Source: Arenibacter sp. 6A1
GTDB taxonomy: Bacteria > Bacteroidota > Bacteroidia > Flavobacteriales > Flavobacteriaceae
NCBI RefSeq assembly: GCF_012272855.1
Contig: NZ_JAAXCQ010000002.1
Location: 62,001-126,000, forward strand
Direction of reading: 5' to 3'
Length of the DNA: 64,000 nucleotides
The notes under the pieces were generated by a model. The model did not search any database. It was not told the DNA's origin and was given only the letters and a program-made list of their open reading frames with translations. This document shows positions 14,509 through 31,701 of the stretch, in pieces (the stretch's first letter is position 1; the number at the start of each line of letters is the position of its first letter). A program made the translations under genes and the position numbers.

Positions 14509-14557
14509 TAAAACTAGGAGAAGTTGCTCCCTAAAACTATGACTTAAGTCAGGTTTT
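14509..14557 (-). promoter_or_regulatory. Fnr-type operator and -7 element of the uspA gene
   Basis: The palindrome TGAC-TTAA-GTCA lies at 14540-14551 with an outer GGTTTT arm at 14552-14557. On the minus strand a -7 element TAGTTTTA spans 14516-14509. The operator centre (14545.5) is 29.5 bp from the first base of the -7 element, the same as at the four other promoters of this set. The -7 sequence is identical to that of ccoS. The start codon follows 47 bp after the -7 element. Confidence 0.75.
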
Positions 14558-14619
14558 ACTCCCTGACCAATGGGTATTTCACAGCAATCAAGAGCTTGCT
14601 ATACAACAATAAAAAAGTG

Positions 14620-15306
14620 CTACAAAGCTTCGGCCAAATTGTTTAAGGATTGGGGGTCTACAATAGCTACTTTTTTTCCAAAGGTTTTTATCAGTCCCTT
14701 TTTTTTGAATTCCGAAATAATCCTGATGACCGATTCGGAAGCGGTACCAACGACATTGGCGATATCCTCGCGCGATAAGGTAAGGGCCAAGTAGCCGTCC
14801 TTATCCTCGCCGAAATTGTTTTTAAGATATATAAAGGCTTCTGCAACCCGTTGTTTTACGGTTTTTTGGGACATATTGACAATAACGTCGTCTGCCTCCT
14901 TTAAATCGTGGGCCATATGCCGAAGTACTTCCACAGCAAAATTAGGATTGGTATTAAGGGTATTTACAATAGCATTTTTGGGAATAAAGCAAGCTTCCAT
15001 ATCGTTTAGGGCCACGGCACTAAGATTGGATATTTCTTCAACGATCACCGAGCGCTGCCCCAAGACCGACCCTTTAGAGGCCAACTTTACAATTTGGTCT
15101 TTGCCGTTAGGACTTAATTTGGAAAGTTTGGATACTCCATTGCGCACACAAAACACTCCGTTGAGTTTCTCGTTCTCCGCAAAAATGGTCTCTCCCTTTT
15201 TAAACAGTTTGGTTGTTTTTGTATCGGACACTTTTTTTAATTCTTCCTTACTCATTGCGCGTAGGGAATTAAACTGGCGAATGATACAATTTTCACATCT
15301 ACTCAT
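14620..15306 (-). CDS. Crp/Fnr-family regulator, FNR-like with three of four cluster cysteines
   Basis: The 228-residue protein has a cyclic-nucleotide-binding-type beta barrel (about 20-115), a dimer helix and a winged HTH (about 165-205). Aligned by eye with E. coli FNR, Cys4 and Cys7 match Cys20 and Cys23, and Cys106 in M-E-A-C-F-I-P matches Cys122 in M-V-C-E-I-P; the position of Cys29 is Asn13. Cys53 is a further free cysteine. The recognition helix reads A-S-E-S-V-I-R, keeping the Glu and Arg of FNR's E-x-x-S-R but with Ile for Ser212. It is divergent from ccoI and probably an oxygen- or redox-responsive activator of cbb3 genes. The sensing chemistry is inferred. Confidence 0.85.
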   Translation of the reverse strand: MSRCENCIIRQFNSLRAMSKEELKKVSDTKTTKLFKKGETIFAENEKLNGVFCVRNGVSKLSKLSPNGKDQIVKLASKGSVLGQRSVIVEEISNLSAVALNDMEACFIPKNAIVNTLNTNPNFAVEVLRHMAHDLKEADDVIVNMSQKTVKQRVAEAFIYLKNNFGEDKDGYLALTLSREDIANVVGTASESVIRIISEFKKKGLIKTFGKKVAIVDPQSLNNLAEAL

Positions 15307-15329
15307 AGCTATAAATTTCGCTGATGGGA

Positions 15330-15403
15330 CAAAATTAAAGGAAGCGCTTTCTTTAAAACCTGACGGTTGTCATGTTTTCTAAAAACCTTTGATGACATCT
15401 TTG
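15330..15403. promoter_or_regulatory. Shared Fnr-type operator between divergent fnr and ccoI promoters
   Basis: The palindrome TGAC-GGTT-GTCA (15361-15372) is flanked by AAAACC and TGTTTT (whole site 15355-15378). On the minus strand a perfect -7 element TAATTTTG lies at 15337-15330; on the plus strand CATCTTTG lies at 15396-15403. The operator centre is 29.5 bp from the first base of each, so one site has activator geometry in both directions. It implies auto-regulation of the Fnr-like gene and parallel activation of ccoI. Confidence 0.8.
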
Positions 15404-15423
15404 CGACTTTAAATTTATATGGT

Positions 15424-17802
15424 ATGGCTAAGACATTGTGTTTTCATTGCGGGGACGATTGCGGCAACAGTCCAATTAGGCAGGAGGACAAGCATTTTTG
15501 TTGTAACGGTTGTAAAACGGTCTATGATATTTTTGCTACCAATGACCTGTCCTACTACTACGAATTGCAATCCGCTGCAGGGGCTTCCCCAAAGGAAATA
15601 GCCGGGAAATACGATTTTTTAGAGTCCCAGCCTATCCTAGATAAGCTTTTGGAGTTCAATGATGGCACCCTACAGATTATAAACCTTTACATCCCCCACA
15701 TTCATTGTAGTTCTTGTATTTGGATCTTGGAAAATTTAAACAAACTACACCCTGCCATTAACAGTTCTCAGGTAGATTTCCCCAAGAAAACGGTTCGCAT
15801 TAGCTTTAATAAAACCTTGGCACCCCTCAAAGAACTGGTGGTTTTACTCTCGAGAATAGGGTATGAACCCTATATTTCCTTAGATGACATGGAGCCCAAA
15901 AAAAAGGGCGTCGACCGTAGTTTACTATACAAATTGGGAATTTCTGGCTTTGCCTTTGGCAATGTTATGTTCCTTTCTTTTCCCGAGTATTTTGAAGTAG
16001 GTGAGTTTTGGCTAGAACAATATAAGGGCTTTTTTCGCTGGTTGATGTTTGCCTTTTCTTTACCTGTGGTCTTTTATGCCTCCCAAGGGTATTTTAAGGC
16101 TGCCTACAAGGGCCTGCGCGCTAAAATCTTAAATATGGACGTCCCTATAGCTTTGGGGATTTTAGTCTTGTTTTTACGCAGTACCACGGAAATTATCTTT
16201 GATTGGGGCGCGGGGTTTTTTGATAGCCTTACCGGCCTGGTTTTCTTTCTATTATTGGGCAAGTTTTTTCAACAGAAAACCTATTCCTACCTTTCTTTTG
16301 AACGCGATTACAAATCCTACTTCCCTATAGCCGTCACCAAAATAACCAAAAACAACAAAGAAGTTAGTGTACAGGTATACGATATTAAAAAAGGCGACCG
16401 GCTTCTTATCCGAAATGAAGAGTTAATTCCGGTCGACGGGATTGTTCTTTCTGGGAATGCTAGAATCGATTACAGTTTTGTCACGGGAGAATCGGACCCA
16501 GTACATAAGTTTTCGGGCGATAAGGTATATGCCGGAGGCAAACAGTTACACAGCGCTATTGAGATGGAAGCGTTAAAATCTGTTTCCCAAAGTTACCTGA
16601 CGCAATTGTGGAGCAACGCCATCTTCGACAAGGACAAATCGACCGGCTTTGAAAACATTACCGATAGCATTGGCAAGCGCTTTACGATTACTGTTTTAAG
16701 TATTGCTTTTATAGCTACCTCCTATTGGTTGGTTATGGACCCCAGCAAAGCCATCAATGTTTTTACCGCTGTCCTTATTATTGCCTGTCCCTGTGCCATT
16801 GCCCTGGCAGCACCTTTTACCCTAGGGAATATGCTCCGTATATTTGGACGCAAGAAACTTTATTTAAAGGACACCCGTGCCATTGAAGAATTGGCAAAAA
16901 TAGATACTGCTATATTTGACAAAACCGGAACGATCACCGCTCCTAAAAAAAGTAATATTTGCTACGAAGGCATAGCACTAACGACCGCGGAAGAATCCCT
17001 TTTAAAAAATACGCTGCGATCATCAAACCATCCCTTGAGCCGCTCTCTTTATAATTTATTAGACGCCCATGATATTATAACCTTAGACGATTATGAAGAA
17101 AACATTGGCCAAGGCCTTATGGGTACCAAAGCCCAGGACCGTATTAAAATAGGTTCTGCCAACTATGTGGGGTATACAGCAACCAACACCCTAGAGACCA
17201 CCTCGGTACACATCAGTACCAACGAAGTGTATAAGGGGAGTTTTCTTTTTCACAATGAATATAGAAAAGGAATAGCGGAACTCTTTCAGGAGATGTCCCA
17301 AACCTTGGATATTTCCATTTTATCTGGCGATAATGCCGGGGAAAGAGCACGGTTAGAACGACTGACCCCAAAAGGCACTCCACTTTATTTTAACCAAAAA
17401 CCCGAAGATAAGATGGAATTTATCCAAGGGCTACAGGACAACCGTAAAAAGGTTCTGATGCTAGGCGACGGCCTAAACGATGCTGGGGCCTTGGCACAAA
17501 GTGATGTAGGCATTGCCATTTCCGAAAATGTCAACGTTTTTTCGCCGGCCTGTGACGGTATTTTAGACGCTAAAAACTTAAGGTACTTGTACCAATATAT
17601 TACCGCTTCTAAAAAAGCCATTCGTATTATACGACTTAGTTTTATGCTTTCGCTCATGTACAATGTGGTTGGCCTTTACTTTGCGGTAACCGGACAGTTA
17701 GAAGCTGTTATAGCGGCGATATTAATGCCCCTAAGTTCTATTAGTATTGTCTTGTTTACAACGGTAGCCACCAATTTGTTGGGCAAAAAACTACCCTCGT
17801 AA
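15424..17802 (+). CDS. ccoI: Copper-translocating P-type ATPase of the cbb3 oxidase assembly system (CcoI/FixI)
   Basis: Membrane ATPase that moves copper for the CuB site of cbb3 oxidase. From the ATG at 15424 it has 792 residues: an N-terminal Cys-rich metal-binding segment (Cys6, 9, 13, 26, 27, 30), an HMA domain with H-C-S-S-C at 94-98, the phosphatase motif T-G-E-S at 354-357, the transport motif C-P-C at 455-457, the phosphorylation motif D-K-T-G-T at 499-503, and a hinge G-D-G-L-N-D-A. A TTG at 15367 in the same frame lies inside the operator and upstream of the promoter, so it is not the start. In many flavobacteria ccoI sits directly beside ccoS; here a 2.65-kb reverse-strand gene separates them. 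Confidence 0.92.
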   Translation: MAKTLCFHCGDDCGNSPIRQEDKHFCCNGCKTVYDIFATNDLSYYYELQSAAGASPKEIAGKYDFLESQPILDKLLEFNDGTLQIINLYIPHIHCSSCIWILENLNKLHPAINSSQVDFPKKTVRISFNKTLAPLKELVVLLSRIGYEPYISLDDMEPKKKGVDRSLLYKLGISGFAFGNVMFLSFPEYFEVGEFWLEQYKGFFRWLMFAFSLPVVFYASQGYFKAAYKGLRAKILNMDVPIALGILVLFLRSTTEIIFDWGAGFFDSLTGLVFFLLLGKFFQQKTYSYLSFERDYKSYFPIAVTKITKNNKEVSVQVYDIKKGDRLLIRNEELIPVDGIVLSGNARIDYSFVTGESDPVHKFSGDKVYAGGKQLHSAIEMEALKSVSQSYLTQLWSNAIFDKDKSTGFENITDSIGKRFTITVLSIAFIATSYWLVMDPSKAINVFTAVLIIACPCAIALAAPFTLGNMLRIFGRKKLYLKDTRAIEELAKIDTAIFDKTGTITAPKKSNICYEGIALTTAEESLLKNTLRSSNHPLSRSLYNLLDAHDIITLDDYEENIGQGLMGTKAQDRIKIGSANYVGYTATNTLETTSVHISTNEVYKGSFLFHNEYRKGIAELFQEMSQTLDISILSGDNAGERARLERLTPKGTPLYFNQKPEDKMEFIQGLQDNRKKVLMLGDGLNDAGALAQSDVGIAISENVNVFSPACDGILDAKNLRYLYQYITASKKAIRIIRLSFMLSLMYNVVGLYFAVTGQLEAVIAAILMPLSSISIVLFTTVATNLLGKKLPS

Positions 17803-18149
17803 AAGCCTCCTTCGTATAGGAAAAAATTATTCCAGGCCTTGCTGAACGATAGGTAAAGTAGGTCCTTATTATATGAATAAACCTCTATGCCCTTCCCATT
17901 CGGATTGTTGGTGCTTTTTCTTATTTAAGAAATCCGTTTCAGCCAAGGACAACGCGTCATCTGGCCCCTTACTTCAAATGCAAATCGTTGCATTTTCCGT
18001 TAGACTTGTTATGATGGTCCCTGATATAGGTTGACTACTAAAAAGTAAACGGACTGCACCAAGCCACTTGCCGATATATAAAAGATAGGATCTTTAAAAA
18101 TTATTGCTGCCCCCCTATTCTTTGCTATACGGGCACAAACGCGACGCTT

Positions 18150-18330: not shown

Positions 18331-18351
18331 ATGTATTGGCTTAGGAAAGTC

Positions 18352-21003
18352 CTATTTCTGATTTTCCAAGAAGGCAATTAAAGAAGCTAATTCTTCAAAA
18401 CTCAAGGCATTCACCAATCCGGCAGGCATCATAGAAGTTTCCAATTCCTTCCTAGAAGCGATGTCCGATTTCTTTAATTTGGTAGGCACACCAGCGATAT
18501 TCGTAATCGTTAGATCGCTTGCAGATTCCTGAGTAATAAACCCTACATAGAAGTCGTCTCCCTTGGTCTCTATCTGTACGGTAGAGAATCCTTGAGAAAT
18601 AGACGCATTCGGTTTAATAATCGATTCGGCTATCTGCTCTCTGTTCATGATAGAACCAATCTGTCCCATAAACGGCCCCTTCATAGTCTCGCTACTCTTT
18701 AAGCTGTGGCAAGTAAAACAAGCTTGAGATTTAAAGATGGCTTCTCCTTTAGAGGCATCGCCTTTAACCTCCTGAAGGGCTAACATAATATCTTCGATAG
18801 ACGATTCTCCTACCTGACCTTTTTTGTTCTTGATTTTCTCAAGATCCATCACCGGTAAATCTACTTTTGGAGCTGACTGTTCTATCGTCCCAAAATCCTC
18901 GATTGCCAAACGATATTTAACGTTTAGCTCAGAATAGAATAATTTATCGTTATCACTAGCCTTCTCCCACTCGGCCATCATAAAATCGCGGATTTTAGCG
19001 GTCTCGTCCCATTCTACTGTTTTGTAGTATGGCCCATGGGTATCTGGACGTGTACTCCACCACCATGAAGTATCGTAATCTGCTTCCTGGAAATAAAGTC
19101 GCGCCAGTGTATTCAATAACGCTCTTTTATACGTTGGGCTTGTAGTGTTCTCATAAGCGTTTATTAAGCCATCAACAGCTACAGGGCTATGCATGTATCT
19201 AAGTGTCCATAGGGCCAAATCTTTCTTATCCGTATCCAATGCCTTAACAGCAGCATCTACAGCGTTTAAGCTTACCAAGGCTTTTACTGCCAAATGCGGT
19301 AGAACGATATCAGAATTTGGTGTAGCATGCGGACCTTCTGTATTTAATTCTGGTGCTACAAAAGATTTAGGAACGGCAACTTCCAATAAGTCATTTACTG
19401 CTTCTTGTCTTCCCAATCTGCCCAATCCTACGATCGCGGCAGCTTTTACACGGTCCGAACCAGATTTAAGTGCTTTTAAGAATGGTTCTAATGGAACATT
19501 CGCTATATTTTCTTTGCGGTCTGCCAAAGCTCTAAGGGCAAATTCCTGAACGGCGGCATCTTCGGTCAAAGCTACCAAACACTCTATACCATCTACTCCG
19601 GTAAGTTGTGCAAAAGTAAAGATACTTGCTGTACGTACTTCTAGGGACAAGTCGGCATTCTTGGCCAATTTATAAACGGCATCGGCACCCTTGCCTCTTC
19701 TTAACAATTCGTATTGTGCGCTTTGTCTTGTCTTGGCATTCCCAGATTTTAACAAGGCAACGACATCATTGGTCCAATAAATATCGGCTACATTTTCAAG
19801 AGGCACATAGTTGAAATCTTTAGGGGTTACCCTTACTACATACCCTTTATCTGGGCTACCAGAATATCCGGCACCATCCCAAGCAGATAGGTACATGGCA
19901 CCACCACCATCTACATCCACATCGGTAATTTGTGGCAATTGGATAAAATCTTCTACTTCTTGGGTAAAGCTAGCCTTGTCTTTGGTAACTCTATGGAAAT
20001 ATAAATAGCTTCTTCCCCAATCGGCCATCATTGGCACATTGTTATAATTCGCTGGCCAACGGTCATCGTTCATATAAAGAGCACCTGTTCCAGATCCTCC
20101 TCCTAAATCGGCCATAGCAGGAATAATTTCTTCCGTAAAGTGCTTGAACAACATAGGATATCCATATTCTGCAGATTGAATTTGGTGAGAGAAACGGATA
20201 TTCCATCCTCCACCATCATTGGTGTTCCCTCTAACGAACATATTCATGAACGGGTCAATAGCCACATCGTAAATATTACGAAGACCGTGGGTATACACTT
20301 CCATTCCTGTTCCATCGGGGCGTACTCTTACGATTCCACCACCTAACATGGTCAGCTGTGTTCCTTCTGCATCGGTAGCATTGTGGAAACCGAAATCGCC
20401 CACAGCGATATAGATCCACCCATCAATACCCATTTGAATACCATTAGTAGCATGGTCTGTACCTCTTTCCTGCAGGTATTTAGAGTTACTGATGTTTTTG
20501 ATCAATACTTTAGCTGGACCATCGGCCACCCCATCGTTGTCTACATCCTCAAAAACTATCAAATCCATATTATTGGCTTTTTTAGTTTCTTCCGTAAAAG
20601 TAGTGTGGAGTACAAACACCTGGTTCCCAATAGCTAAAATACCACGAGGGTTATCTACACGGGCAAACTCAGTATATGAATCCATAATTCCGTCATGGTT
20701 ACAATCTACCAAACGCTTTATGAAACCTTTTCCCATATCTTTCCCTAGGGACCCCATCATATCTACCCCAACAAACACTTCTCCTGTAGGCGATACTGCC
20801 ATACATGCTGGACTAGGGTTAACATCGGGACCAGAAAAACCGGTTATTTTTAAATCATCGGGCCACTTAAGGACATTGGCAAGCGAATCGCCTGAAGGAT
20901 AATTTATAACAGTGTCACTCGGAGTACACACCACTTCTTTTTTCTGCTGGCAACTGGCCAACAACAAACTTGTCAAAAATAAATAACCGGTTTTTCTAAA
21001 CAT
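18352..21003 (-). CDS. Lipoprotein with beta-propeller dehydrogenase-like domain, HEAT repeats and C-terminal cytochrome c
   Basis: An 883-residue exported protein. A signal peptide ends in the lipobox L-L-A-S-C (Cys18). Then comes a propeller resembling sorbosone/glucose dehydrogenases (PVC-type membrane-bound dehydrogenase domain, about 45-410), helical HEAT-like repeats (about 430-640) and a cytochrome c domain with C-F-T-C-H at 762-766 and a candidate distal Met in M-M-P-A-G near 857. Proteins of this plan are widespread in Planctomycetes/Verrucomicrobia and marine Bacteroidota and are presumed to oxidise sugars or alcohols and pass electrons to a terminal oxidase. It sits inside the cbb3 gene region, a possible electron acceptor. 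The substrate is unknown; a relative lies at 61253-63493. Confidence 0.85.
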   Translation of the reverse strand: MFRKTGYLFLTSLLLASCQQKKEVVCTPSDTVINYPSGDSLANVLKWPDDLKITGFSGPDVNPSPACMAVSPTGEVFVGVDMMGSLGKDMGKGFIKRLVDCNHDGIMDSYTEFARVDNPRGILAIGNQVFVLHTTFTEETKKANNMDLIVFEDVDNDGVADGPAKVLIKNISNSKYLQERGTDHATNGIQMGIDGWIYIAVGDFGFHNATDAEGTQLTMLGGGIVRVRPDGTGMEVYTHGLRNIYDVAIDPFMNMFVRGNTNDGGGWNIRFSHQIQSAEYGYPMLFKHFTEEIIPAMADLGGGSGTGALYMNDDRWPANYNNVPMMADWGRSYLYFHRVTKDKASFTQEVEDFIQLPQITDVDVDGGGAMYLSAWDGAGYSGSPDKGYVVRVTPKDFNYVPLENVADIYWTNDVVALLKSGNAKTRQSAQYELLRRGKGADAVYKLAKNADLSLEVRTASIFTFAQLTGVDGIECLVALTEDAAVQEFALRALADRKENIANVPLEPFLKALKSGSDRVKAAAIVGLGRLGRQEAVNDLLEVAVPKSFVAPELNTEGPHATPNSDIVLPHLAVKALVSLNAVDAAVKALDTDKKDLALWTLRYMHSPVAVDGLINAYENTTSPTYKRALLNTLARLYFQEADYDTSWWWSTRPDTHGPYYKTVEWDETAKIRDFMMAEWEKASDNDKLFYSELNVKYRLAIEDFGTIEQSAPKVDLPVMDLEKIKNKKGQVGESSIEDIMLALQEVKGDASKGEAIFKSQACFTCHSLKSSETMKGPFMGQIGSIMNREQIAESIIKPNASISQGFSTVQIETKGDDFYVGFITQESASDLTITNIAGVPTKLKKSDIASRKELETSMMPAGLVNALSFEELASLIAFLENQK

Positions 21004-21335: not shown

Positions 21336-21384
21336 AAAACCTGACAAATGTCATATTTTCTTAGAAATGGCCACGGTAGTTTTA
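21336..21384 (+). promoter_or_regulatory. Fnr-type operator and -7 element of the cco operon
   Basis: The palindrome TGAC-AAAT-GTCA (21342-21353) has outer AAAACC and TATTTT arms (21336-21359). The -7 element TAGTTTTA is at 21377-21384. The operator centre is 29.5 bp from the first base of the -7 element. The ccoS ATG follows at 21404. Confidence 0.8.
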
Positions 21385-21403: not shown

Positions 21404-21619
21404 ATGAGTGCTATTTATTTATTATTAACCTTAAGTATTATTGTGGCCATAGTTTTTTTTGCAGCTTTTTTACTCTCCGTAAAAAACGGACAATACGATG
21501 ACTCCTACACTCCATCAGTCCGCATGCTTTTTGAAGACGAATTAGTTACCGACCCTGACAAAAAGCTACAAACACCCGAAAACAAATCAATCCAAATAAA
21601 AGAAAGTCAAAAATTGTAA
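21404..21619 (+). CDS. ccoS: cbb3-type oxidase assembly protein CcoS
   Basis: A 71-residue protein with one N-terminal membrane helix (about 3-27) followed by the family-typical cytoplasmic segment S-V-K-N-G-Q-Y-D-D with its conserved Gly-Gln-Tyr-Asp/Glu-Asp. CcoS is needed for inserting haem b and copper into CcoN. It ends 3 bp before ccoNO and is the first gene of the operon. Length and position fit the family well. Confidence 0.93.
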   Translation: MSAIYLLLTLSIIVAIVFFAAFLLSVKNGQYDDSYTPSVRMLFEDELVTDPDKKLQTPENKSIQIKESQKL

Positions 21620-21622: not shown

Positions 21623-23821
21623 ATGGAAGTACAGCAGTTTTATTACGATAACAAGATCGTAAAAAAGTTCCTCTATGCAACAATGTTCTGGGGAATTATA
21701 GGAATGTCGGTAGGCTTGCTCCTTGCCTTTATGTTTCTATTCCCAAATATCACCGATGGTATTTCCTGGTTGAGTTTTGGTCGTCTTAGGCCATTGCATA
21801 CCAATGCCGTCATTTTTGCTTTTATCGGAAACGCCATTTTTGCCGGGGTATATTATTCTACTCAGCGCTTGTTAAAGGCTAGAATGTTTAGTGACGCCCT
21901 GAGCAACTTCAATTTTTGGGGCTGGCAGGCCATTATTGTTGCCGCGGCCATTACCCTACCCCTTGGCTATACCTCTTCGAAGGAGTACGCAGAACTAGAA
22001 TGGCCTATAGATATTGCCATTACCGTGGTCTGGGTAGCCTTTGGCTGGAACCTTATTGGTACCATGTTAAGGAGGAGGCAACGACATTTATATGTCGCCA
22101 TTTGGTTTTACCTAGCCACTTTTGTCACCGTAGCGGTTCTTCATATCTTTAATAGCCTGTCCTTACCAGTAAGTGCTTTTAAAAGTTACTCTGTGTATGC
22201 CGGAGTACAAGATGCCTTGGTACAATGGTGGTACGGCCATAATGCGGTAGCATTTTTCCTAACCACGCCATTCTTGGGGCTGATGTACTATTTTGTTCCC
22301 AAAGCGGCCAACAGACCTATTTATTCTTATCGATTATCTATTGTCCACTTTTGGTCCTTGATTTTTATTTATATCTGGGCCGGACCGCATCACTTATTGT
22401 ATTCTTCCTTACCGGATTGGGCGCAAAATTTAGGCGTAGCGTTTTCTATTATGCTTCTTGCTCCGTCTTGGGGAGGGATGATCAACGGTTTATTGACCCT
22501 GAGAGGCGCATGGGACAAGGTACGGACCGATCCTGTTTTAAAATTTATGGTAGTCGCAATTACCGGCTACGGAATGGCCACTTTTGAAGGCCCTATGCTT
22601 TCCCTTAAAAACGTAAATGCCATTGCGCATTTCAGCGATTGGATTATTGCCCACGTACACGTTGGGGCCTTAGCTTGGAACGGTTTCATGACCTTTGGTA
22701 TGATCTATTGGTTGGTACCAAAAATGTTTAAGACAAAAATGTATTCGACCGCACTTTCCAATTTTCACTTTTGGATAGGGACCCTAGGGATTATTTTATA
22801 CGCCCTGCCTATGTACGTTGCCGGGTTTATGCAGGCTCTTATGTGGAAGGAATTTAATCCGGACGGCACCTTGGTTTACGGGAACTTCTTAGAAACCGTT
22901 ACCGAAATAATGCCAATGTACTGGATGCGTGCCATTGGAGGAAGCATGTATATCCTTGGAGCCATTGTAATGATCTATAACGTAGCGCTGACCATAAAAA
23001 GCGGCACCAAAGTAGCCGACGAATTGGCTGAAGCTCCTGCCTTGACCAGAGTATCCAAGAAAAGAACAGCCGGAGAAACCTGGCATACTTGGATAGAGCG
23101 TAAGCCTATTCAATTGACCATTTTTGCTACCATTGCCATCTTAATAGGTGGGGTCATACAAATTGTACCGACCATCTTGGTAAAATCGAACATTCCGACC
23201 ATTACCAGTGTAAAACCATATACTCCTTTAGAATTAGAGGGTAGGGATTTATATATCCGTGAAGGTTGTGTTGGTTGTCACTCACAAATGGTAAGACCTT
23301 TTAGAAGTGAGGTAGAACGTTACGGAGAATATTCCAAGGCCGGAGAATTTGTATACGACCATCCTTTTTTATGGGGAAGCAAGCGTACAGGTCCCGATTT
23401 ATTAAGGGTCGGCGGAAAATATTCGGACAACTGGCACCTTAACCATATGTACGACCCACAGAGCACCTCCTCTGGATCTATAATGCCGGCCTACCAATGG
23501 TTGGTGCACAACGAACACGACCGCAGCAATATTCAAGGAAAAATGGAAGCCATGATTAACCTTGGGGTTCCTTATACCGAAGAAGATATTGCCAATGCCG
23601 AAAATTGGATGGACGAACAGGCCACCCAGATCGAAAAGAACCTGTATGCCGATCCAGATTTTGCCAAAACATATGAGGCCGACAAAAAATACGCCCTTGA
23701 AAACGGGGAGGAATTTGTAGAAATGAGAAATAGGGAGATCGTATCCCTGATCGCCTACTTACAGCGTTTGGGAACAGACATCAAAATAAAAGAAACCGAC
23801 GAAATAATTTCACAAAACTAA
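21623..23821 (+). CDS. ccoNO: cbb3-type cytochrome c oxidase, fused subunits I and II (CcoN-CcoO)
   Basis: A 732-residue inner-membrane protein. The first ~480 residues form the 12-helix haem-copper subunit with the expected histidines (for example R-P-L-H-T-N-A and G-H-N-A-V-A-F-F-L, then [10 protein letters not shown]). The rest is the CcoO cytochrome c module with one anchor helix and C-V-G-C-H at 549-553, followed by S-Q-M-V-R-P-F. The two subunits, separate in Proteobacteria, are a single chain here, as is usual in Bacteroidota. It reduces oxygen to water with high affinity and pumps protons. Next gene starts 6 bp downstream. Confidence 0.95.
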
Positions 23822-24018: not shown

Positions 24019-24897
24019 ATGAAAAATAATATGCCATGGTGGATTAGAATCCCCGTAATCTTCTTCCTCATCTTTGGACTGATGGAATTTGCGATTGAAT
24101 CTGGAGACCAACCTGCATTCATCGCCTATCCAATCACCTTGTTTTTTTTATTGTTCGTATTATTTCTTCTGATCGCGATAGAATTAATCCTACGATCCAT
24201 AGAAAATGTCATGTACCAGACCCTCTCTAAGGAGGCTCAGCAACGGTATTTGGCCACTAGTTCCAACTCTTACGAATGGGGCTGGGCTAAACGCTTATTG
24301 GCCAAGATGACCGGTAACAAACCCGTGGAAGAAGAAGCAGAGATAATTTTAGACCATAATTACGACGGTATTAAAGAACTGGACAACAACCTTCCGCCAT
24401 GGTGGGTATATATGTTCTATGCCTCCATCATTTTTGGTATTGTTTATATGGCCAGGTATCACATCTTCAATGGTGACAATCAGGACGTAGAATACGAAAA
24501 AGAAGTCGCTGCTGCCCAAATCGATATTGCCGAGTACAAGAAAAATGCCAAGGGTTTGGTCGATGCTTCTACCGTAGAAGTATTAACCGAAGCTTCGGAC
24601 CTGAAGGCTGGAGAAGCTATCTACCAATCGAATTGTGTGGCCTGCCATATGGCCGATGGCGGTGGTGGAATAGGACCTAACCTTACCGATGACCATTGGA
24701 TTACAGGGGGCGGAATCAAAAATATTTTTAGCACTATTTCCGAAGGCGGTAGGGCCGGAAAAGGAATGATCGCCTGGAAACAAAGCTTAAAACCATTAGA
24801 AATAGCACAGGTAGCGAGTTATGTATACTCGCTTCATGGGCAAACGCCGGCAAACCCTAAAGATCCAGAAGGAGAAATCTGGACCGAAGAACCATAA
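24019..24897 (+). CDS. ccoP: cbb3 oxidase subunit III, mono-haem CcoP
   Basis: A 292-residue membrane-anchored cytochrome c. Two N-terminal helices are followed by a cytoplasmic stretch, a third helix starting with the conserved N-N-L-P-P-W-W-V segment (about 130-155) and one cytochrome c domain with C-V-A-C-H at 206-210. Proteobacterial CcoP has two haems; only one C-x-x-C-H is present here, in line with the Bacteroidota type. It should take electrons from soluble or lipoprotein cytochromes into CcoO. It begins 5 bp after ccoQ. Confidence 0.93.
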   Translation: MKNNMPWWIRIPVIFFLIFGLMEFAIESGDQPAFIAYPITLFFLLFVLFLLIAIELILRSIENVMYQTLSKEAQQRYLATSSNSYEWGWAKRLLAKMTGNKPVEEEAEIILDHNYDGIKELDNNLPPWWVYMFYASIIFGIVYMARYHIFNGDNQDVEYEKEVAAAQIDIAEYKKNAKGLVDASTVEVLTEASDLKAGEAIYQSNCVACHMADGGGGIGPNLTDDHWITGGGIKNIFSTISEGGRAGKGMIAWKQSLKPLEIAQVASYVYSLHGQTPANPKDPEGEIWTEEP

Positions 24898-24943: not shown

Positions 24944-26353
24944 ATGGAAGAAAATTTTAGGGACTCAATAGGAACGATCAACAAAGAGGGAAAGAGAGCT
25001 TGGGTTTTTCCCAAAAAACCAAGCGGTCCGCTGTACGAATATCGTAAATATGTTAGTTATGCTTTATTGCTTTTTCTATTGGCCTCTCCTTTTATAAAAA
25101 TAAATGGCAATCAATTTTTAATGTTCAACGTTCTAGAAAGACGTTTTAACATTTTTGGCCTCCCGTTTTGGCCACAGGACTTCTACCTCTTTGTGCTTTC
25201 TATGATCATAGGGGTTGTTTTTATAGCGCTTTTTACAGTGGCTTTTGGAAGGATATTTTGCGGATGGTTATGTCCCCAAACGATCTTTATGGAAATGGTC
25301 TTTAGACGTGTTGAATATTGGATAGATGGTGACCGAGGAGCACAAAAACGATTGGATAGACAGGAGTGGAATGCCGAAAAAATTAAAAAGAGAGCCCTAA
25401 AATGGACTGTTTTCTTTTTCATTTCATTCCTAATAGCCAATGTTTTTTTAGCCTACCTTATTGGAAGCGATAGGTTGTTACTATATATAAGCCAGGGACC
25501 ATTTCGGCATATAAGCACCTTGGTGTCCCTATTGATATTTACCGCAGTATTCTTTTTTGTTTTTGCCTGGTTTCGCGAGCAGGTCTGTATCATTGCCTGT
25601 CCCTATGGAAGAATGCAAGGGGTATTGCTCGACAACAAATCTGTGGTCGTTGCCTACGACCACAAACGTGGAGAAGCCGAAAAAGGACGAAAAAAATTTA
25701 AAAAAGGAGAAGACAGACAGGCGCTGGGCCATGGGGATTGTATCGATTGTTTTCAATGTGTCAACGTTTGTCCTACCGGGATTGATATTAGAAACGGCAC
25801 CCAGTTAGAATGTGTTAACTGCACCGCTTGTATAGATGAATGTGACACCATCATGGAGAACGTTCATTTACCGAAAGGATTAATTAGGTACGCTAGTGAA
25901 GAAAATATAGAAAAGAAAACCCCCTTTGAATTCACCCCTAGATTAAAAGGATACAGTGCTGTACTGCTTATACTAATTGGAATTTTAGCTGGAATGCTTT
26001 TTTTAAGGAACGATCTGGAAGCAAATATTCTTCGCCTACCAGGACAATTGTACGAGCATAAAGAGAATAATATTATCAGCAATGTGTTCACCTATAAACT
26101 ACTGAATAAAACTACCAAAACTATTGACGATGTTAGTTTTAAACTACTTTCCCACAACGGAAAGATAGAAGTGGTTACCCATGAAAATTTTGATGTCCCG
26201 GCCCAAGGGTTGTCCGAAGGAACACTATTTATAGAAATAAATAATTCGGCCTTAAACGGGGACAAGGACAAGCTAAGGATAGGCGTGTACAGTGGCGAGC
26301 ACCTCATTGAAACTACCACGGCCCGGTTTTTGGCGCCGAGAAGTTATAAGTAA
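24944..26353 (+). CDS. ccoG: Cytochrome oxidase accessory protein CcoG (polyferredoxin, cupric reductase-like)
   Basis: A 469-residue membrane protein with about five helices. An early C-G-W-L-C-P motif is followed by two 4Fe-4S ferredoxin motifs (C-I-D-C-F-Q-C-V-N-V-C-P at 266-277 and a second C-x-x-C-x-x-C-x-x-x-C around 290-300), then a last membrane helix and a periplasmic Ig-like FixG domain. CcoG reduces Cu(II) to Cu(I) for cbb3 assembly in Proteobacteria. It is 46 bp after ccoP and probably on the same transcript. Confidence 0.92.
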   Translation: MEENFRDSIGTINKEGKRAWVFPKKPSGPLYEYRKYVSYALLLFLLASPFIKINGNQFLMFNVLERRFNIFGLPFWPQDFYLFVLSMIIGVVFIALFTVAFGRIFCGWLCPQTIFMEMVFRRVEYWIDGDRGAQKRLDRQEWNAEKIKKRALKWTVFFFISFLIANVFLAYLIGSDRLLLYISQGPFRHISTLVSLLIFTAVFFFVFAWFREQVCIIACPYGRMQGVLLDNKSVVVAYDHKRGEAEKGRKKFKKGEDRQALGHGDCIDCFQCVNVCPTGIDIRNGTQLECVNCTACIDECDTIMENVHLPKGLIRYASEENIEKKTPFEFTPRLKGYSAVLLILIGILAGMLFLRNDLEANILRLPGQLYEHKENNIISNVFTYKLLNKTTKTIDDVSFKLLSHNGKIEVVTHENFDVPAQGLSEGTLFIEINNSALNGDKDKLRIGVYSGEHLIETTTARFLAPRSYK

Positions 26354-26468: not shown

Positions 26469-26915
26469 ATGAAAATAAATTGGGGAACATCCATAGTACT
26501 GGCATTTATAGCATTTATAAGTTTCATTTTATTTTTTGTAGTACGCATGAGCATGGACGATAGGACCAACCACGATTTGGTCACCGAGGAATATTACAAG
26601 ACCGAACTTGGGTTTCAAAAAGAGATCGATGCCGAGAACAATGCCAATAAGCATAAACAAACCATTAGAGTTGTAAAAACGACCGAAGGTCTTTTGTTAC
26701 AATTCCCCAACACTATAACACCTTCGGAGGTGACTGGAAAGGTTTATATGTACCGGCCTTCTAACAAGAAATTAGATTATAATTTCCCTTTAAGTTTATC
26801 CGAGGCACAAGTACTCATCCCCAACAACCGAATGGTTGAGGGACGATGGGACATTAAAATTGCTTGGGAGTATAAAGGAGAAGTATTTATGCACAAAGAA
26901 AAAATAACCTACTGA
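26469..26915 (+). CDS. ccoH: cbb3 oxidase assembly protein CcoH/FixH
   Basis: A 148-residue protein with an N-terminal membrane helix (about 8-26) and a beta-rich periplasmic domain of the FixH family, including D-x-x-T-x-H-D-L-V-T-E-x-Y-Y as the recognisable post-helix motif. CcoH assists assembly of CcoP and maturation of the complex. It sits 115 bp after ccoG, before a SafE-like protein, in conserved cco order. Confidence 0.9.
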   Translation: MKINWGTSIVLAFIAFISFILFFVVRMSMDDRTNHDLVTEEYYKTELGFQKEIDAENNANKHKQTIRVVKTTEGLLLQFPNTITPSEVTGKVYMYRPSNKKLDYNFPLSLSEAQVLIPNNRMVEGRWDIKIAWEYKGEVFMHKEKITY

Positions 26916-26967: not shown

Positions 26968-27672
26968 ATGTTACTACCTGCTTTTTTACTGGGCTTAATG
27001 GGGAGCTTCCACTGTGTCGGAATGTGTGGCCCCATTGCTTTTATGCTTCCGGTAGACCGCGAGGACCCGCTTAAGAAATTCTTTCAAATATTTTTATACC
27101 ATTTTGGAAGACTGGCAGCCTATAGCTTTTTAGGATTGGTCTTTGGGCTATTGGGAAAAGGGGTCTATATTTTTGGACAACAACAAAAGCTATCCATTAT
27201 TATAGGGGTGTTCATGATCGTTGTGGTACTACTCCCCTACAATACCTTTGCTAAGTATAATTTTTCCAAACCCATCTATGGGCTTTTAGCCAACTTAAAA
27301 AACACCTTAGGCCAAGCGCTAAAAAAGAAAACCCTGGACACCTTTTTTACCATAGGTTTTTTGAATGGTTTTCTTCCTTGTGGTATGGTATACATGGCAA
27401 TTTTCGGTGCTATTGGGATGGGAAACCCATGGCAAGGGATGCTTTTTATGTTTCTTTTTGGAGCAGGTACCATACCTTTAATGACCATAGCCGTCTATTT
27501 TAGTGGCCTACTAAAGGGGGTGGGCAAAAAGAACATACAGCGGTTAATCCCTGTGTTTGTTGTCCTTATTGGTATCCTTTTTATTCTAAGAGGCCTAGGC
27601 TTGGGAATCCCCTATATTTCTCCCGAACCGGTACAACAAATAATCTCTAGCAACCTGGAATGCCACACTTAA
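26968..27672 (+). CDS. SafE/DsbD-like membrane protein of the cco cluster
   Basis: A 234-residue protein with six or seven membrane helices. The first carries G-S-F-H-C-V-G-M-C-G-P, a conserved Cys-x-x-x-Cys pair with His, and a later helix has N-G-F-L-P-C-G-M-V-Y. This is the sulfite exporter TauE/SafE-annotated (UreH-like) family regularly found last in cco clusters. The paired cysteines suggest copper or thiol transfer to the periplasm for cbb3 assembly; direct evidence for the role is lacking. It lies 52 bp after ccoH. Confidence 0.85.
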   Translation: MLLPAFLLGLMGSFHCVGMCGPIAFMLPVDREDPLKKFFQIFLYHFGRLAAYSFLGLVFGLLGKGVYIFGQQQKLSIIIGVFMIVVVLLPYNTFAKYNFSKPIYGLLANLKNTLGQALKKKTLDTFFTIGFLNGFLPCGMVYMAIFGAIGMGNPWQGMLFMFLFGAGTIPLMTIAVYFSGLLKGVGKKNIQRLIPVFVVLIGILFILRGLGLGIPYISPEPVQQIISSNLECHT

Positions 27673-27753: not shown

Positions 27754-29229
27754 ATGACAAATAAACTATTCCTACTATGCAGTGCACTATTTATTATACT
27801 GAGCTGCAAAAACCACCCAAAAACAGAAAGTTCCCTTGAACCCTTAGGGGCCAAAAACCTTGCATATAAATGGGGAGAAGTAGCCCTAACGGCCACCGCT
27901 AATGATACGGAAAGATTTAAGCCAAGACCTACAGTAACTTCGCGTTATTTGGGCCTCATTTTTATTTCTATTTTCGACGCTTGGTCTGTCTATGACGATA
28001 CTGCTGTTCCCGTATATTTAAAGGACGTAAAAAGGCAGGCTGAAGCTGAGCGAACTTTAAAGCAAAAGGAAATAGCAATCAGTTATGCCGCATTCCGAAC
28101 TTTGAGCGAATACTACTATTCGGACCAAGATTTATTCCGAAAATTTATGGTAGAATTAGGACTGGACCCGGACAATACTTCCTTAGATCCAAAAACACCG
28201 GAAGGTATTGGCAACCTTGCTGCGAAAGCAGTTATAGAGGCTCGAAAATTTGATGGAGCCAACCAACATGGAGAAGAGCCAGGGTCCGATGGCACCCCCT
28301 ATTACGATTATACCAACTACCAACCTATAAACAGCCCAGATGTTAATGTGGATATAGATCGCTGGCAGCCAAAATATTTCTCCGATGGCAAGGGCGGTAA
28401 ATTTGCCCCTAGTTGTTTAACTCCCTTTTGGAACAAGGTACAACCAATTGCCCTTCAATCAGCGGATCAGTTTAGACCTGGCCCCCCACCACTAGTGGGT
28501 TCTGAACAAATGGAAAAAGAGGTGAAAGAAGTCATCAGCCTTCAAACAAACCTAAGTCAGGCAGAAAAAGCCCTGGTAGAATTTATGAGAGACGGTCCCC
28601 AATCTGTTCAACAAGCGGGACATTGGCTTAAGTTTGCCCAAGACGTTTCTAGAAGGGATGCCAACTCTTTGGACATGGACGTAAAAATGTATTTCTTGAC
28701 ACAAATAACGGCTATGGATGCCTTTATTGCTTCTTGGGATGCTAAAATGTATTACGATTCGGCCAGGCCATATGCCTTGGTACATGCGTATTACCCCGAT
28801 ATGGTTATTAATGGCTGGAAAGGCCGCGAGCAAGGATGGGGAGAACTTAAGGGAAGCGAATGGCAGCCCTATTCTCCTGAAGAATTTCTTTGTCCTCCCT
28901 TTCCTAGTTATGTCTCCGGACATAGTACAATTAGCGGTGGGTGTGCAGAAGCCTTACGATTATTTACGGGAGACGATTTCTTCGGAGAAGAAGTACAGCT
29001 AGTTCCTGGGGCACTAACCGAACCCGAAAATGTTGGGGATACCGTAACCATAAAATTCCCTAGTTTTACCGAAACCGCTAATTTGGCGGGCATATCGAGA
29101 GTCATGGGAGGTTACCATATTCAGGCAGACAATGTGGCCGGCCTGCAACTTGGAAGGGATGTTGCCCACCAAGCCTGGAAGTTTTACTTAAACCATATTG
29201 GAAAAACCGACACCAAAAATCCGCTTTAA
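27754..29229 (+). CDS. Vanadium-dependent haloperoxidase / PAP2-superfamily lipoprotein
   Basis: A 491-residue exported protein whose signal peptide ends in I-L-S-C (Cys18). The C-terminal half carries the complete vanadate/phosphate-binding set: Lys331 and Arg338 in K-M-Y-Y-D-S-A-R-P, Ser388-Gly389-His390 in P-S-Y-V-S-G-H-S, and Arg449 with His455 in S-R-V-M-G-G-Y-H. These match Lys353, Arg360, Ser402, His404, Arg490 and His496 of fungal vanadium chloroperoxidase. Acid phosphatase activity is the main alternative, because the two families share the site. It follows the cco operon by 81 bp but has no copy of the Fnr operator. Confidence 0.85.
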   Translation: MTNKLFLLCSALFIILSCKNHPKTESSLEPLGAKNLAYKWGEVALTATANDTERFKPRPTVTSRYLGLIFISIFDAWSVYDDTAVPVYLKDVKRQAEAERTLKQKEIAISYAAFRTLSEYYYSDQDLFRKFMVELGLDPDNTSLDPKTPEGIGNLAAKAVIEARKFDGANQHGEEPGSDGTPYYDYTNYQPINSPDVNVDIDRWQPKYFSDGKGGKFAPSCLTPFWNKVQPIALQSADQFRPGPPPLVGSEQMEKEVKEVISLQTNLSQAEKALVEFMRDGPQSVQQAGHWLKFAQDVSRRDANSLDMDVKMYFLTQITAMDAFIASWDAKMYYDSARPYALVHAYYPDMVINGWKGREQGWGELKGSEWQPYSPEEFLCPPFPSYVSGHSTISGGCAEALRLFTGDDFFGEEVQLVPGALTEPENVGDTVTIKFPSFTETANLAGISRVMGGYHIQADNVAGLQLGRDVAHQAWKFYLNHIGKTDTKNPL

Positions 29230-29279
29230 TTTGTTCAAAAAATAAAAGCCAGTTATTTGTTGGTTTTATACCTCACTAA

Positions 29280-29319
29280 AAAAGCCTCGACCGGAAGTTC
29301 TTTTCCCATCGAGGCTTTT
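29280..29319. terminator. Bidirectional terminator between the haloperoxidase-like gene and uspA
   Basis: AAAAGCCTCGA (29280-29290) pairs exactly with TCGAGGCTTTT (29309-29319). The A and T tracts on the two sides allow function in both directions. It separates converging genes that end at 29229 and 29363. Confidence 0.85.
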
Positions 29320-29362
29320 ATCTTATCAGGATTTAACCCTGCTTTTAATAGCGGTTATTTTG

Positions 29363-30184
29363 CTATATTTTAAAGGTGATTACCGGTATTTTTGAATGGT
29401 TCACCACATCTTCCCCAATACTTCCCATAAAGAAGTGTGTTAACCCTTTTCTTCCATGGGTAGGCATTCCTATTAGATCTGCATTGATACTATTACTGAA
29501 GTTATGAATCCCCCTTTCTACACTATAATCGTTGTAAATCTCTACTTTCAGGCCAGAAGAGGCCTTGTGTAAAAACTTAGATATTCTGGAATAGGCATCG
29601 GAGGTGCTTAAAAAGTTATCTCCAGGGGTATTTATAATCACTAAAAACAGGCTTGCAGAAAGTTTATCGGCAAACTTTACAGCCTTTTTAAAGGCCTCTA
29701 TATTTTCTTCTTTGAAGTCACAGGCAAAAACAACACGCTTTATGTCAAAGTCCTCAATTTCGTCCTTTATGACCATTACCGGTATTTTGGAGTGTCTCAC
29801 CATCTTTTCGGCGTTAGAACCTACAAATATTTCCTTAAGCCCGTCGGTACCGTGAGAGCCCATTACTATTAAATCGACATTATGCTTTTCGACTACTTCA
29901 TTGACCTCATTATACACTTTATGATGCTTGACGATGGGGGTAATTTTTAGTCCCTTTAAATATGGTCTGTTTAAAAATGAAGCAAATTTCTTTTCTGCCA
30001 ATTTTATTAAGAAAGTAGCATGTTCGTATTGGGCATGTTCGTTATAAGTCATCAGGGCGGCAGACAACTCCAACATGTGTAGCACATAAATTTCCGAATC
30101 CTTTTTTTTAGCCAAGGAAGCTGCCGCTTTTAACGCAATTTCTGATTGTTTTGAAAAATCTACCGGTACAATAATTTTTTTCAT
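29363..30184 (-). CDS. Universal stress protein, tandem UspA domains
   Basis: A 273-residue two-domain Usp protein. Both domains show the ATP-binding-type G-x-x-G-x-x-x-x-x-x-G-S segment (M-G-S-H-G-T-D-G-L-K-E-I-F-V-G-S-N in the first, M-P-T-H-G-R-K-G-L-T-H-F-F-M-G-S in the second), so nucleotide binding is likely. It starts 86 bp after the hemN stop on the same strand without a recognisable promoter or terminator between them, so it is probably read from the hemN promoter and thus from the Fnr-type operator. Confidence 0.9.
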   Translation of the reverse strand: MKKIIVPVDFSKQSEIALKAAASLAKKKDSEIYVLHMLELSAALMTYNEHAQYEHATFLIKLAEKKFASFLNRPYLKGLKITPIVKHHKVYNEVNEVVEKHNVDLIVMGSHGTDGLKEIFVGSNAEKMVRHSKIPVMVIKDEIEDFDIKRVVFACDFKEENIEAFKKAVKFADKLSASLFLVIINTPGDNFLSTSDAYSRISKFLHKASSGLKVEIYNDYSVERGIHNFSNSINADLIGMPTHGRKGLTHFFMGSIGEDVVNHSKIPVITFKI

Positions 30185-30270
30185 CTTATTATATTTTTAC
30201 GTTTATCACTATCTATATTTTTAAAAAACGCTTCCCCCTGCTATTTTGTTGTTTTTCTCAGATCAAAGAA

Positions 30271-31632
30271 TTAGATCGTCATTGAAAACAATCTGGTATT
30301 GGGTTCTTTTCTATGCAATAAAAGATCAAAGGCCATGGCTATATTCCGTACAAACGGTCTTCCTTTCTCCGTTACCGACACCCCGGTATCTGACAGACTC
30401 ACCAAACCATCAAGAGACAGTTCCTTTAATTTTTCCTTTATCAGTGGCAATTCACCCAAAATTTCGGGTTCCTTGCCCCAATTTGTTTTGAAGGTACACA
30501 TTATATTCAATATATGTTTTCTGATGATTTTATCCTCCTCCGACAACATGTGCCCTCTATAAATAGGAATTATATTATTATCGACCAGGTGGCCATACTC
30601 TTCTAAACTTTTTACATTTTGGGCAAACCCAGACCAGCTATCGCTAATTGCAGAAACACCTAAGCCCAACATCAATTGAGTTTTTGAAGCCGTATATCCC
30701 ATAAAGTTCCGGTGTAAACTACCTTTTTCCATGGCCTTGTAAAGGCTGTCACCTGTAACGGCAAAGTGATCCATACCAATTTCACTATACCCTACTTCCA
30801 CCAACAATTCTTTCCCTTTTTCATATTGGATACGTTTCTCTTCCGCTGTTGGCAAATCTGCATCCTGGTAGCCTCTTTGGCCATTCCCCTTTAACCAAGG
30901 CACATGAGCATAGCTATAAAAAGCCAATCGGTCCGGCTTTAATTCCTTCGTTTTTAATATGGTGTGCGCTACATCTGCTACATTTTGGAAGGGCAAGCCG
31001 AAAATAATATCATGGCTTACCGAAGTATAGCCTATTTCCCGTGCCCATTGCGTCACTTTTTGTACATTTTCGAAAGGCTGAATCCTGTGAATGGCCTTTT
31101 GTACTTTCTCATTATAATCTTGCACCCCGTAACTCACGCGCCTAAAGCCCAGATCGAATAAGGTCTGTAAATGCTCCTTGGTGGTATTATTGGGGTGCCC
31201 TTCAAAACTGAATTCATAGCCTTCTGCCCTTTCGGCACGCTTAAAAATTCCTTTGATCAATCGCCCTAAATTTTCGGGCGAAAAGAAGGTCGGAGTACCA
31301 CCTCCTAAATGAAGTTCCTTTATTTTTGGTTTGTTAGGGAATAGATTACAGTACAGATCCCATTCTTTTAATACATGGGATATATATGGATTTTCTACCT
31401 CGTGCCGCTTTGTTATCCGTTTATGACAACCACAAAAAGTACAAAGACTTTCACAGAAAGGCAAATGGATATATAGACTAATCCCCTCTTTTTCGTTGGT
31501 CTCCTTAAAACTTTCCCGTACACTATTTTTCCAATCTTGACCAGAAAAAGTATCCAAATCCCAATAAGGGACGGTAGGGTAGCTGGTGTAACGAGGTCCG
31601 GGAACATTATACTTTTGTACTAGGTTGCGCAT
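30271..31632 (-). CDS. hemN: Oxygen-independent coproporphyrinogen III oxidase (HemN)
   Basis: Radical-SAM enzyme that makes protoporphyrinogen IX without oxygen, keeping haem synthesis running under low oxygen for cbb3 oxidase. The cluster cysteines are Cys60, Cys64 and Cys67 in C-E-S-L-C-T-F-C-G-C, followed by the glycine-rich L-H-L-G-G-G-T-P-T-F. The N-terminal Y-T-S-Y-P-T segment is typical of true HemN rather than HemW. Length 453 is standard. Its promoter has the same operator and spacing as the cco genes. Confidence 0.95.
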   Translation of the reverse strand: MRNLVQKYNVPGPRYTSYPTVPYWDLDTFSGQDWKNSVRESFKETNEKEGISLYIHLPFCESLCTFCGCHKRITKRHEVENPYISHVLKEWDLYCNLFPNKPKIKELHLGGGTPTFFSPENLGRLIKGIFKRAERAEGYEFSFEGHPNNTTKEHLQTLFDLGFRRVSYGVQDYNEKVQKAIHRIQPFENVQKVTQWAREIGYTSVSHDIIFGLPFQNVADVAHTILKTKELKPDRLAFYSYAHVPWLKGNGQRGYQDADLPTAEEKRIQYEKGKELLVEVGYSEIGMDHFAVTGDSLYKAMEKGSLHRNFMGYTASKTQLMLGLGVSAISDSWSGFAQNVKSLEEYGHLVDNNIIPIYRGHMLSEEDKIIRKHILNIMCTFKTNWGKEPEILGELPLIKEKLKELSLDGLVSLSDTGVSVTEKGRPFVRNIAMAFDLLLHRKEPNTRLFSMTI

Positions 31633-31652
31633 ATCTTATTTTTAATTCCCAA

Positions 31653-31701
31653 CAAATGTACCGCAGCAGATGGGGATAAAACATGACAACTGTCAGGTTA
31701 C
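31653..31701 (-). promoter_or_regulatory. Fnr-type operator and -7 element of hemN
   Basis: The palindrome TGAC-AACT-GTCA (31684-31695) has an AAAACA arm at 31678-31683. On the minus strand the perfect -7 element TACATTTG spans 31660-31653, 29.5 bp from the operator centre at 31689.5. The hemN ATG follows 20 bp later. The remaining part of gap 31633-31949 contains the promoter of the next, divergent gene. Confidence 0.8.

Follow-up and report, generated by a model that had tools for sequence, protein, structure and literature searches.

The 64,000-nucleotide stretch of Arenibacter sp. 6A1 DNA analysed here (the window, whose own numbering is used below) holds the gene of an Fnr-like regulator of the CRP/FNR superfamily, genes for a cbb3 oxidase, for a copper P-type ATPase and for oxygen-independent haem synthesis, and two usp genes. 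Four copies of the palindrome TGAC-N4-GTCA (TGACNNNNGTCA) all precede genes of this one theme. The genes are:

13545..14462, minus strand: Usp, the gene of the usp promoter (Pfam PF00582, 6.5e-18)
14620..15306, minus strand: Fnr-like regulator, cNMP-binding fold and HTH_Crp, with Cys 4, 7, 53 and 106
15424..17802, plus strand, ATG at 15424: ccoI, copper P-type ATPase (Pfam)
21404..21619, plus strand: ccoS (TIGR00847, above cut-off)
21623..23821, plus strand: ccoNO, fused cbb3 oxidase subunits I and II (PRK14485, 1356 bits)
24019..24897, plus strand: ccoP (FixP) (Pfam PF14715; TIGR00782 below its cut-off)
24944..26353, plus strand: ccoG (TIGR02745, above cut-off)
26469..26915, plus strand: ccoH (FixH) (Pfam PF05751)
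26968..27672, plus strand: DsbD_2 family membrane protein, closing the cco genes (Pfam PF13386)
29363..30184, minus strand: Usp, 86 bp downstream of hemN and possibly on its transcript (Pfam PF00582, 1.8e-46)
30271..31632, minus strand: hemN, oxygen-independent coproporphyrinogen III oxidase (TIGR00538, 430 bits)

The palindromes and the -7 elements that they face are listed next, with start sites predicted from the position of the Flavobacterium psychrophilum box, whose first base lies at -12 (PMC9723704, part of the text):

14540..14551, centre 14545.5: palindrome TGACTTAAGTCA, usp promoter
14509..14516, minus strand, first base 14516: usp -7-like element TAGTTTTA, predicted start about 14504
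15361..15372, centre 15366.5: palindrome TGACGGTTGTCA, common to the divergent fnr and ccoI promoters
15330..15337, minus strand, first base 15337: fnr -7 element TAATTTTG, predicted start about 15325
15396..15403, plus strand: ccoI -7-like element CATCTTTG, whose first base is not T, predicted start about 15408
21342..21353, centre 21347.5: palindrome TGACAAATGTCA, ccoS-ccoNO promoter
21377..21384, plus strand: ccoS-ccoNO -7-like element TAGTTTTA, predicted start about 21389
31684..31695, centre 31689.5: palindrome TGACAACTGTCA, hemN promoter
31653..31660, minus strand, first base 31660: hemN -7 element TACATTTG, predicted start about 31648

The mechanically called open reading frame of ccoI begins with a TTG at 15367, upstream of the predicted transcription start.

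The exact palindrome occurs four times in the window and nowhere else in it, where 0.35 occurrences were expected and none of 100 shuffles reached four. In all five promoters 29.5 bp separate its centre from the first base of the -7 element, corresponding to a gap of 23 bp. Five of the eight oriented flanks thus carry at least five of the six fixed bases of TAnnTTTG at one and the same gap (P = 8e-9, or 4e-7 allowing for 56 gaps, with the background rate measured at the palindromes of the genome outside the window). The coordinates, centres and spacing given in a preliminary description of the locus proved exact on rechecking, and so did the presence of one CTGAC and one ATGAC half-site in each of the four palindromes; the AAAAC/GTTTT frame that it also drew around them holds for part of the sites only, the right-hand side reading ATTTT at 21342 and GTTAC at 31684. 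The arrangement of palindromes at a fixed spacing is therefore confirmed as real. A search of the genome for the composite of palindrome, gap and -7 element with up to two mismatches gave 45 matches, all of them listed, against 32 for a reversed control, the rows with two mismatches being mixed with chance matches; none of the 45 added a further site in the window.

The remainder of the genome (4.67 Mb in 60 contigs) served as a held-out set. Enrichment of the bare palindrome had been considered as evidence and was dropped, with 26 exact sites genome-wide and 38 of the reversed pattern; what carries the signal is the combination of palindrome and fixed spacing, not the palindrome alone. The 22 palindromes outside the window provide 44 oriented flanks, and with the gap fixed beforehand at 23, six of these carried a -7 element matching at five or more of six positions, compared with a mean of 0.47 over the 55 other gaps (P = 8e-6). 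Downstream of the six sites lie genes for a c-type cytochrome, a Usp, a thioredoxin-fold protein, a YceI protein and a Pta that runs off the fetched stretch, together with one for an ArsC-like protein, a weak assignment whose value of 0.00032 falls short of the Pfam cut-off.

Among the held-out flanks matching at four of six positions is the promoter of nadA (L010, 1328-1370), in which an exact palindrome stands at gap 23 from TACTTTGC. This element agrees with the alternative TAnnTTGY (SM5) box described for F. psychrophilum in the available part of PMC9723704, a hint, from sequence, that this activator geometry may also be compatible with a second sigma factor.

The composite site recurs widely among relatives. 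A survey of 60 genomes from 60 genera of the family, Arenibacter sp. 6A1 included, with the pattern TGACNNNNGTCA-N{10,38}-TANNTTTG placed 94 of the 150 matches listed at gap 23, with 7 at gap 24, 5 at gap 22 and an average of 2.0 over all 28 gaps other than 23, so that activator site and core promoter stand at a fixed distance (the gap histogram covers the 150 matches listed, the per-genome counts being complete). When Y or R was allowed at the fourth base (TGAY/RTCA), gap 23 gave 480 matches in these genomes and the reversed pattern 8. Outside the family, it matched 85 times in 22 genomes from other families of the class (4 for the control) and 39 times in 111 genomes from elsewhere in the phylum (5 for the control), these totals being hand sums from the per-genome table.

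Conservation was also found upstream of individual orthologues, at the 80 best-matching CcoN loci out of 591 or more; the lack of such conservation, which the preliminary description had named as a refuting outcome, did not occur. Loci lacking the gene, offering less than 80 bp upstream or with a match beginning after residue 12 were excluded, leaving 63 loci for ccoI, 68 for ccoS and 31 for hemN. Where the best palindrome matched at seven or more of eight positions, a -7 element of at least five of six stood at gap 23 in 27 of 36 cases for ccoI, 30 of 35 for ccoS and 13 of 13 for hemN; over a longer stretch and at a threshold of four of six, the counts were 30 of 36, 30 of 37 and 13 of 13. 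With TGAT halves allowed, gap-23 sites were present at 39 ccoI, 49 ccoS and 20 hemN loci. Upstream of usp13, 16 of 26 loci had the palindrome at this stringency and 14 of these at least four of six at gap 23; the usp rows include paralogues down to 20% identity and some genes twice, and were not relied on.

The flanking bases of 108 sites at ccoI, ccoS and hemN promoters refine the code. A T follows the proximal half in every one of the 108, the proximal half always being ATGA, and the distal half is preceded by A in 65, C in 38, G in 4 and T in 1, giving the consensus [A/C]TGA[C/T]-N4-[G/A]TCAT, asymmetric towards the promoter. The fnr promoter of the window is an exception to the asymmetry because it uses the ccoI site from the opposite side. 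The E. coli FNR site is TTGAT-N4-ATCAA, whose outer T is not matched on the distal side (1 of 108). Of the TGAC-N4-GTCA code proposed initially, then, the core recurs, with TGAT half-sites tolerated and with A or C at the outer base where FNR has T (FNR box as quoted in the consulted part of PMC1274295).

In F. psychrophilum the -7 box occupies positions -12 to -5 (PMC9723704, in part), and with 29.5 bp from the palindrome centre to the first base of that box the window palindromes would be centred at -41.5, the class II position. The invariant proximal T would then sit at -35 and may also serve the polymerase. Leaders of 15-19 nt are predicted for fnr, ccoI (counted from 15425, its ATG being at 15424), ccoS and hemN, and of 42 nt for usp. 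Oxygen limitation strongly raises the cbb3 oxidase of F. psychrophilum, and haem synthesis enzymes also increase; the words Crp and FNR do not occur in the available text of that report (PMC9723704).

The regulator encoded at 14620..15306 has the CRP/FNR fold, with a cNMP-binding beta-roll followed by HTH_Crp. A profile of 32 Fnr proteins found the FNR of A. fischeri at 3e-40 and CRP-type chains at 7e-30 or weaker. Cysteines 4, 7, 53 and 106 are invariant in 37 of 37 aligned proteins (that of the window and 36 orthologues). The cluster of E. coli FNR is held by C20, C23, C29 and C122; C4, C7 and C106 align with cluster cysteines, and Cys53 aligns with an FNR alanine. In the recognition helix, Glu191, Ile194 and Arg195 are invariant in 32 proteins; Glu191 and Arg195 align with the Glu and Arg with which FNR reads the TGA core, and Ile194 stands where FNR has Ser. 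Since that Ser has a role in reading the outer T of TTGAT, the substitution may explain the missing outer T. Thr or Ser precedes the Glu in 37 proteins, a residue class tied to FNR-like rather than CRP-like sites in the consulted part of PMC1274295, and by its sequence the helix appears to belong to the class that reads FNR-like half-sites. A CRP/FNR homologue of Flavobacteriales was taken as a MalR relative in PMC8510549 (seen in part).

A second type of regulator bears on the same sites. REC-CRP proteins, consisting of Response_reg, cNMP_binding and HTH_Crp domains, are encoded beside a PAS histidine kinase and occur twice in the Arenibacter sp. 6A1 genome, once on contig C46 and once on C2, each time within a Usp-rich island. 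In 26 REC-CRP loci (of 30 fetched, four partial matches being left out) the composite site was found 45 times at gap 23, no other gap between 5 and 44 having it more than twice. Across the 60 family genomes, with Fnr scored as present at E <=1e-30 and REC-CRP at E <=1e-70, all nine genomes with neither regulator had 0-1 composite sites each, those with Fnr only a median of 5 (range 1-15, n=25), those with REC-CRP only a median of 9.5 (range 5-16, n=10) and those with both a median of 14.5 (n=16). The Fnr-present group includes G018 and G040, whose matches have no N-terminal CxxC and which hold 1 and 2 sites, and the weak match of G033 (36%). The contrast between neither and any regulator gave P=1.6e-6 and that between neither and Fnr only P=1.2e-5, shared ancestry being ignored in both. 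REC-CRP is thus an equally good partner elsewhere, and the code is better read as one that is probably shared by a small set of CRP/FNR proteins; its attribution in the preliminary description to this one Fnr is not supported, REC-CRP regulators with near-identical helices adjoining the same sites at the same spacing.

The largest island, about 49 kb at C46:11612-60304 (L137-L139), encodes a PAS kinase, REC-CRP, several Usp, Hsp20, PfkB, a cation P-type ATPase, an M50-CBS protease, UPRTase, acetate kinase and Pta, a DosR/lxa-like content, and holds 14 of the 45 genome composite matches with up to two mismatches. A second PAS-kinase/REC-CRP and Usp island lies at C2:15029-30645 (L140) and a third Usp cluster at C11:303000-307000 (L142), both with sites at gap 23. 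Titles and abstract openings of open-licence PMC papers gave no account, for Bacteroidota, of this composite site or of Usp islands with REC-CRP, which is weak evidence of absence.

What emerges is a real and recurrent promoter architecture, probably of the class II FNR type, adapted to the core promoter of the Bacteroidota. We consider it highly probable, on sequence grounds, that the window palindromes are class II FNR-type activator sites of which the adjacent Fnr-like protein is the main reader. A symmetric dimer of the CRP/FNR superfamily would bind the consensus centred at -41.5 and recruit RNA polymerase with the primary sigma factor to the TAnnTTTG element 23 bp downstream, yielding messengers with short leaders. 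Oxygen would be sensed through an Fe-S cluster held by Cys4, Cys7, Cys106 and probably Cys53, and the targets that Fnr would turn on are the cbb3 oxidase with its copper pump, haem synthesis independent of oxygen, Usp and, within this clade, fnr itself. At the Usp-rich islands outside the window the same grammar is probably read by the two PAS-kinase/REC-CRP systems, and part of the regulon may be shared between the two types of regulator. The low-oxygen regulon of cbb3 oxidase, CcoI, HemN and Usp that the preliminary description had proposed fits both the recurrence at orthologues and across genomes and the co-occurrence with regulators, and as a low-oxygen-type regulon marked by class II FNR-type sites it is supported.

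Several results weigh against this interpretation. The bare palindrome is not enriched genome-wide, and at the laxer threshold of four of six the held-out test weakens to 8 of 44 flanks against a mean of 3.3. No palindrome matching at seven or more of eight positions was present within 330 bp upstream of 27 of 63 ccoI, 31 of 68 ccoS and 18 of 31 hemN genes. The protein reaches 98 bits with the NCBIfam Fnr model, whose cut-off is 228 (hence our term Fnr-like), and 76 and 63 bits with FnrL and FixK, whose cut-offs are 300; its top match, by fold as by profile, is not FNR but a Crp/Fnr protein of P. gingivalis whose function is unstated, and its profile has Asn, not Cys, at the counterpart of FNR Cys29. 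Genomes with REC-CRP only keep 5-16 sites, and REC-CRP could be the actual activator at some promoters. Finally, the genomes that lack both regulators are for the most part small (averaging 2.2 Mb, with only three of at least 2.5 Mb); when restricted to genomes of at least 2.5 Mb the contrast is weakened, though still there (P=4e-4, shared ancestry again ignored).

The sites could be rightly read and the signal be other than oxygen, if the regulator sensed NO or redox state in the manner of DNR or HcpR or were controlled by thiol oxidation like FixK2. Of the four FNR cluster cysteines three have aligned counterparts here, that of Cys29 being absent. FixK2 acts in microoxic life with an activity controlled post-translationally by oxidation (PMC9104804, in part), and HcpR of delta-proteobacteria and two cyanobacteria uses TTGAC-N4-GTCAA (PMC1274295, in part). 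HcpR, DNR and NnrR, however, are without the FNR cysteine motif according to the same portion of PMC1274295, whereas here four cysteines are invariant, among them the CxxC and Cys106 aligned with those of FNR, and the targets found are cbb3, ccoI, hemN and usp genes, hcp, nor, nir and nos being those typical of such regulators (with the held-out genes, these are the ones named, only part of the composite sites of the genome having been annotated). We regard a signal of this kind as unlikely.

Alternatively, the palindromes might be read mainly by the two REC-CRP response regulators through a PAS-kinase phosphorelay, the proximity of fnr being incidental. Consistent with this are the 45 gap-23 sites in REC-CRP loci, the usp neighbours of REC-CRP and its recognition helix, near-identical to that of Fnr. 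Half-site use is likewise indistinguishable: the fourth base was tried as a means of separating the cco/hemN sites from those at REC-CRP loci and rejected (TGAC in 91 of 216 against 32 of 94 halves, P=0.21, a comparison blurred because the cco/hemN set includes loci without an fnr match, 21 loci having ccoI and no such match), and an early impression that REC-CRP sites were rich in TGAT was dropped, the preference being no different. Against it, the 25 genomes with Fnr and without REC-CRP still hold sites, so that Fnr alone suffices for their retention; ccoI genes that adjoin fnr in Flavobacterium and Tenacibaculum loci again have sites, and the fnr promoter itself contains one. Reading of the palindromes mainly by REC-CRP seems to us distinctly improbable. 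That the spacing merely reflects copied neighbouring promoters, or chance occurrences of TAnnTTTG, a short pattern in AT-rich sequence, around palindromes that are themselves unenriched, is scarcely credible, given that the five window promoters have different sequences across the 23 bp, that the 150 matches listed form a single spike at 23, that the reversed control gave 8 matches against 480 and that sites are nearly absent from genomes with neither regulator.

The regulation of fnr itself appears to differ between clades. At the threshold of four of six, 24 of 41 fnr loci had a palindrome and 7 of them a -7 element at gap 23. When matches below 44% identity were excluded, a -7 box at gap 23 on the fnr side, the geometry of activation, was found in the window and 4 of 35 relatives, all of the Arenibacter/Maribacter clade; in 18 of 35 the box was at gap 9-11, where the palindrome would lie between -35 and -22 in a geometry of repression, and 13 of 35 had neither. 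The palindrome reaches only six of eight positions in five of these 18 loci and in L019; L020, a gap-23 case, has a further five-of-six match at gap 9. In the Fnr tree a single change is enough to account for the 5 gap-23 rows, as it is for the 18 gap-9-11 rows, and a 100/100 branch separates the two groups (14 rows in neither group uncounted, root at midpoint). The fnr-side geometry thus probably changed once, and self-repression, found in the most distant rows with the root so placed, is likely the older state; from position, the clade difference suggests a changed sign of autoregulation. Activation of both fnr and ccoI from the shared palindrome, as first proposed, fits the clade of the window only, while fnr has a repression-like position in those 18 relatives.

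More broadly, a single grammar, [A/C]TGAY-N4-RTCAT-N23-TAnnTTTG, may serve flavobacteria and other families of the class, read by Fnr with Cys4/7/53/106 as a rearranged set of cluster ligands and by PAS-kinase REC-CRP at dormancy-like Usp islands, with one switch between fnr autorepression and autoactivation (the activating form being that of Arenibacter/Maribacter) when the fnr -7 box moved by about 13 bp; for this composite proposal we see the balance as even.

E. coli FNR class II sites centre at -41.5, and the promoters described here resemble them in the N4 palindrome, the TGA core, the predicted centre, the CRP/FNR fold and the CxxC with a counterpart of Cys122. They differ in the outer base, A or C and not T, and in having a TAnnTTTG -7 element, not -35/-10, just as the regulator differs in having no Cys29 counterpart, an invariant Cys53 and Ile194 for the FNR Ser. 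In alphaproteobacteria, FnrL and FixK2 are CRP/FNR-type activators of the cbb3 oxidase and its assembly genes and are autoregulated; the same combination would apply here, with activation suggested by site position, on a different type of promoter and with a protein far below the FnrL and FixK cut-offs; FixK2, for its part, is not known to carry an FNR-type cysteine set. The DosR/DevR regulon of mycobacteria is a Usp-rich low-oxygen gene set, and like it, and like a Burkholderia locus activated at low oxygen (known from a source consulted in part), the C46, C2 and C11 islands are Usp-rich sets of low-oxygen type; unlike DosR, they carry predicted FNR-type class II sites and REC-CRP fusions (C46 and C2), and no NarL-type DosR. 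HcpR1 of delta-proteobacteria and cyanobacteria shares the TGAC-N4-GTCA core, the small residue at CRP position 180 and the Glu at 181, but regulates hcp/norB, is without the FNR cysteine motif and has T as outer base (PMC1274295, in part).

Activator-dependent promoters of Bacteroidota are little described in searchable papers, and their core promoter differs from the E. coli type. A composite signature of fixed distance, recurrent over 60 genera, lets a low-oxygen-type regulon be read from genome sequence and suggests that class II geometry works with a TAnnTTTG promoter, which bears on marine and freshwater flavobacteria switching to high-affinity respiration. It also makes clear tests possible, of the regulator type at each gene, of Cys53 as a cluster ligand and of the sign of fnr autoregulation between clades.

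The ccoI promoter has a peculiarity of its own. Only 4 of 39 loci begin its -7 element with T (14 have G, 12 have C and 9 have A), compared with 69 of 69 at ccoS and hemN (P=3e-24, kinship ignored). Competition with the divergent fnr promoter was considered as the cause and rejected, the loci L018, L027, L036, L043 and L065, in which no fnr was found, also being without T; it is possible that the promoter of the copper pump is deliberately weak and strictly activator-dependent. In the window ccoI and ccoS are separated by a large gene on the opposite strand, at 18352-21003, whose product has a CFTCH haem-c motif. In many relatives ccoI and ccoS are about 100 bp apart, and even there, for example in L020, ccoS keeps a site of its own.

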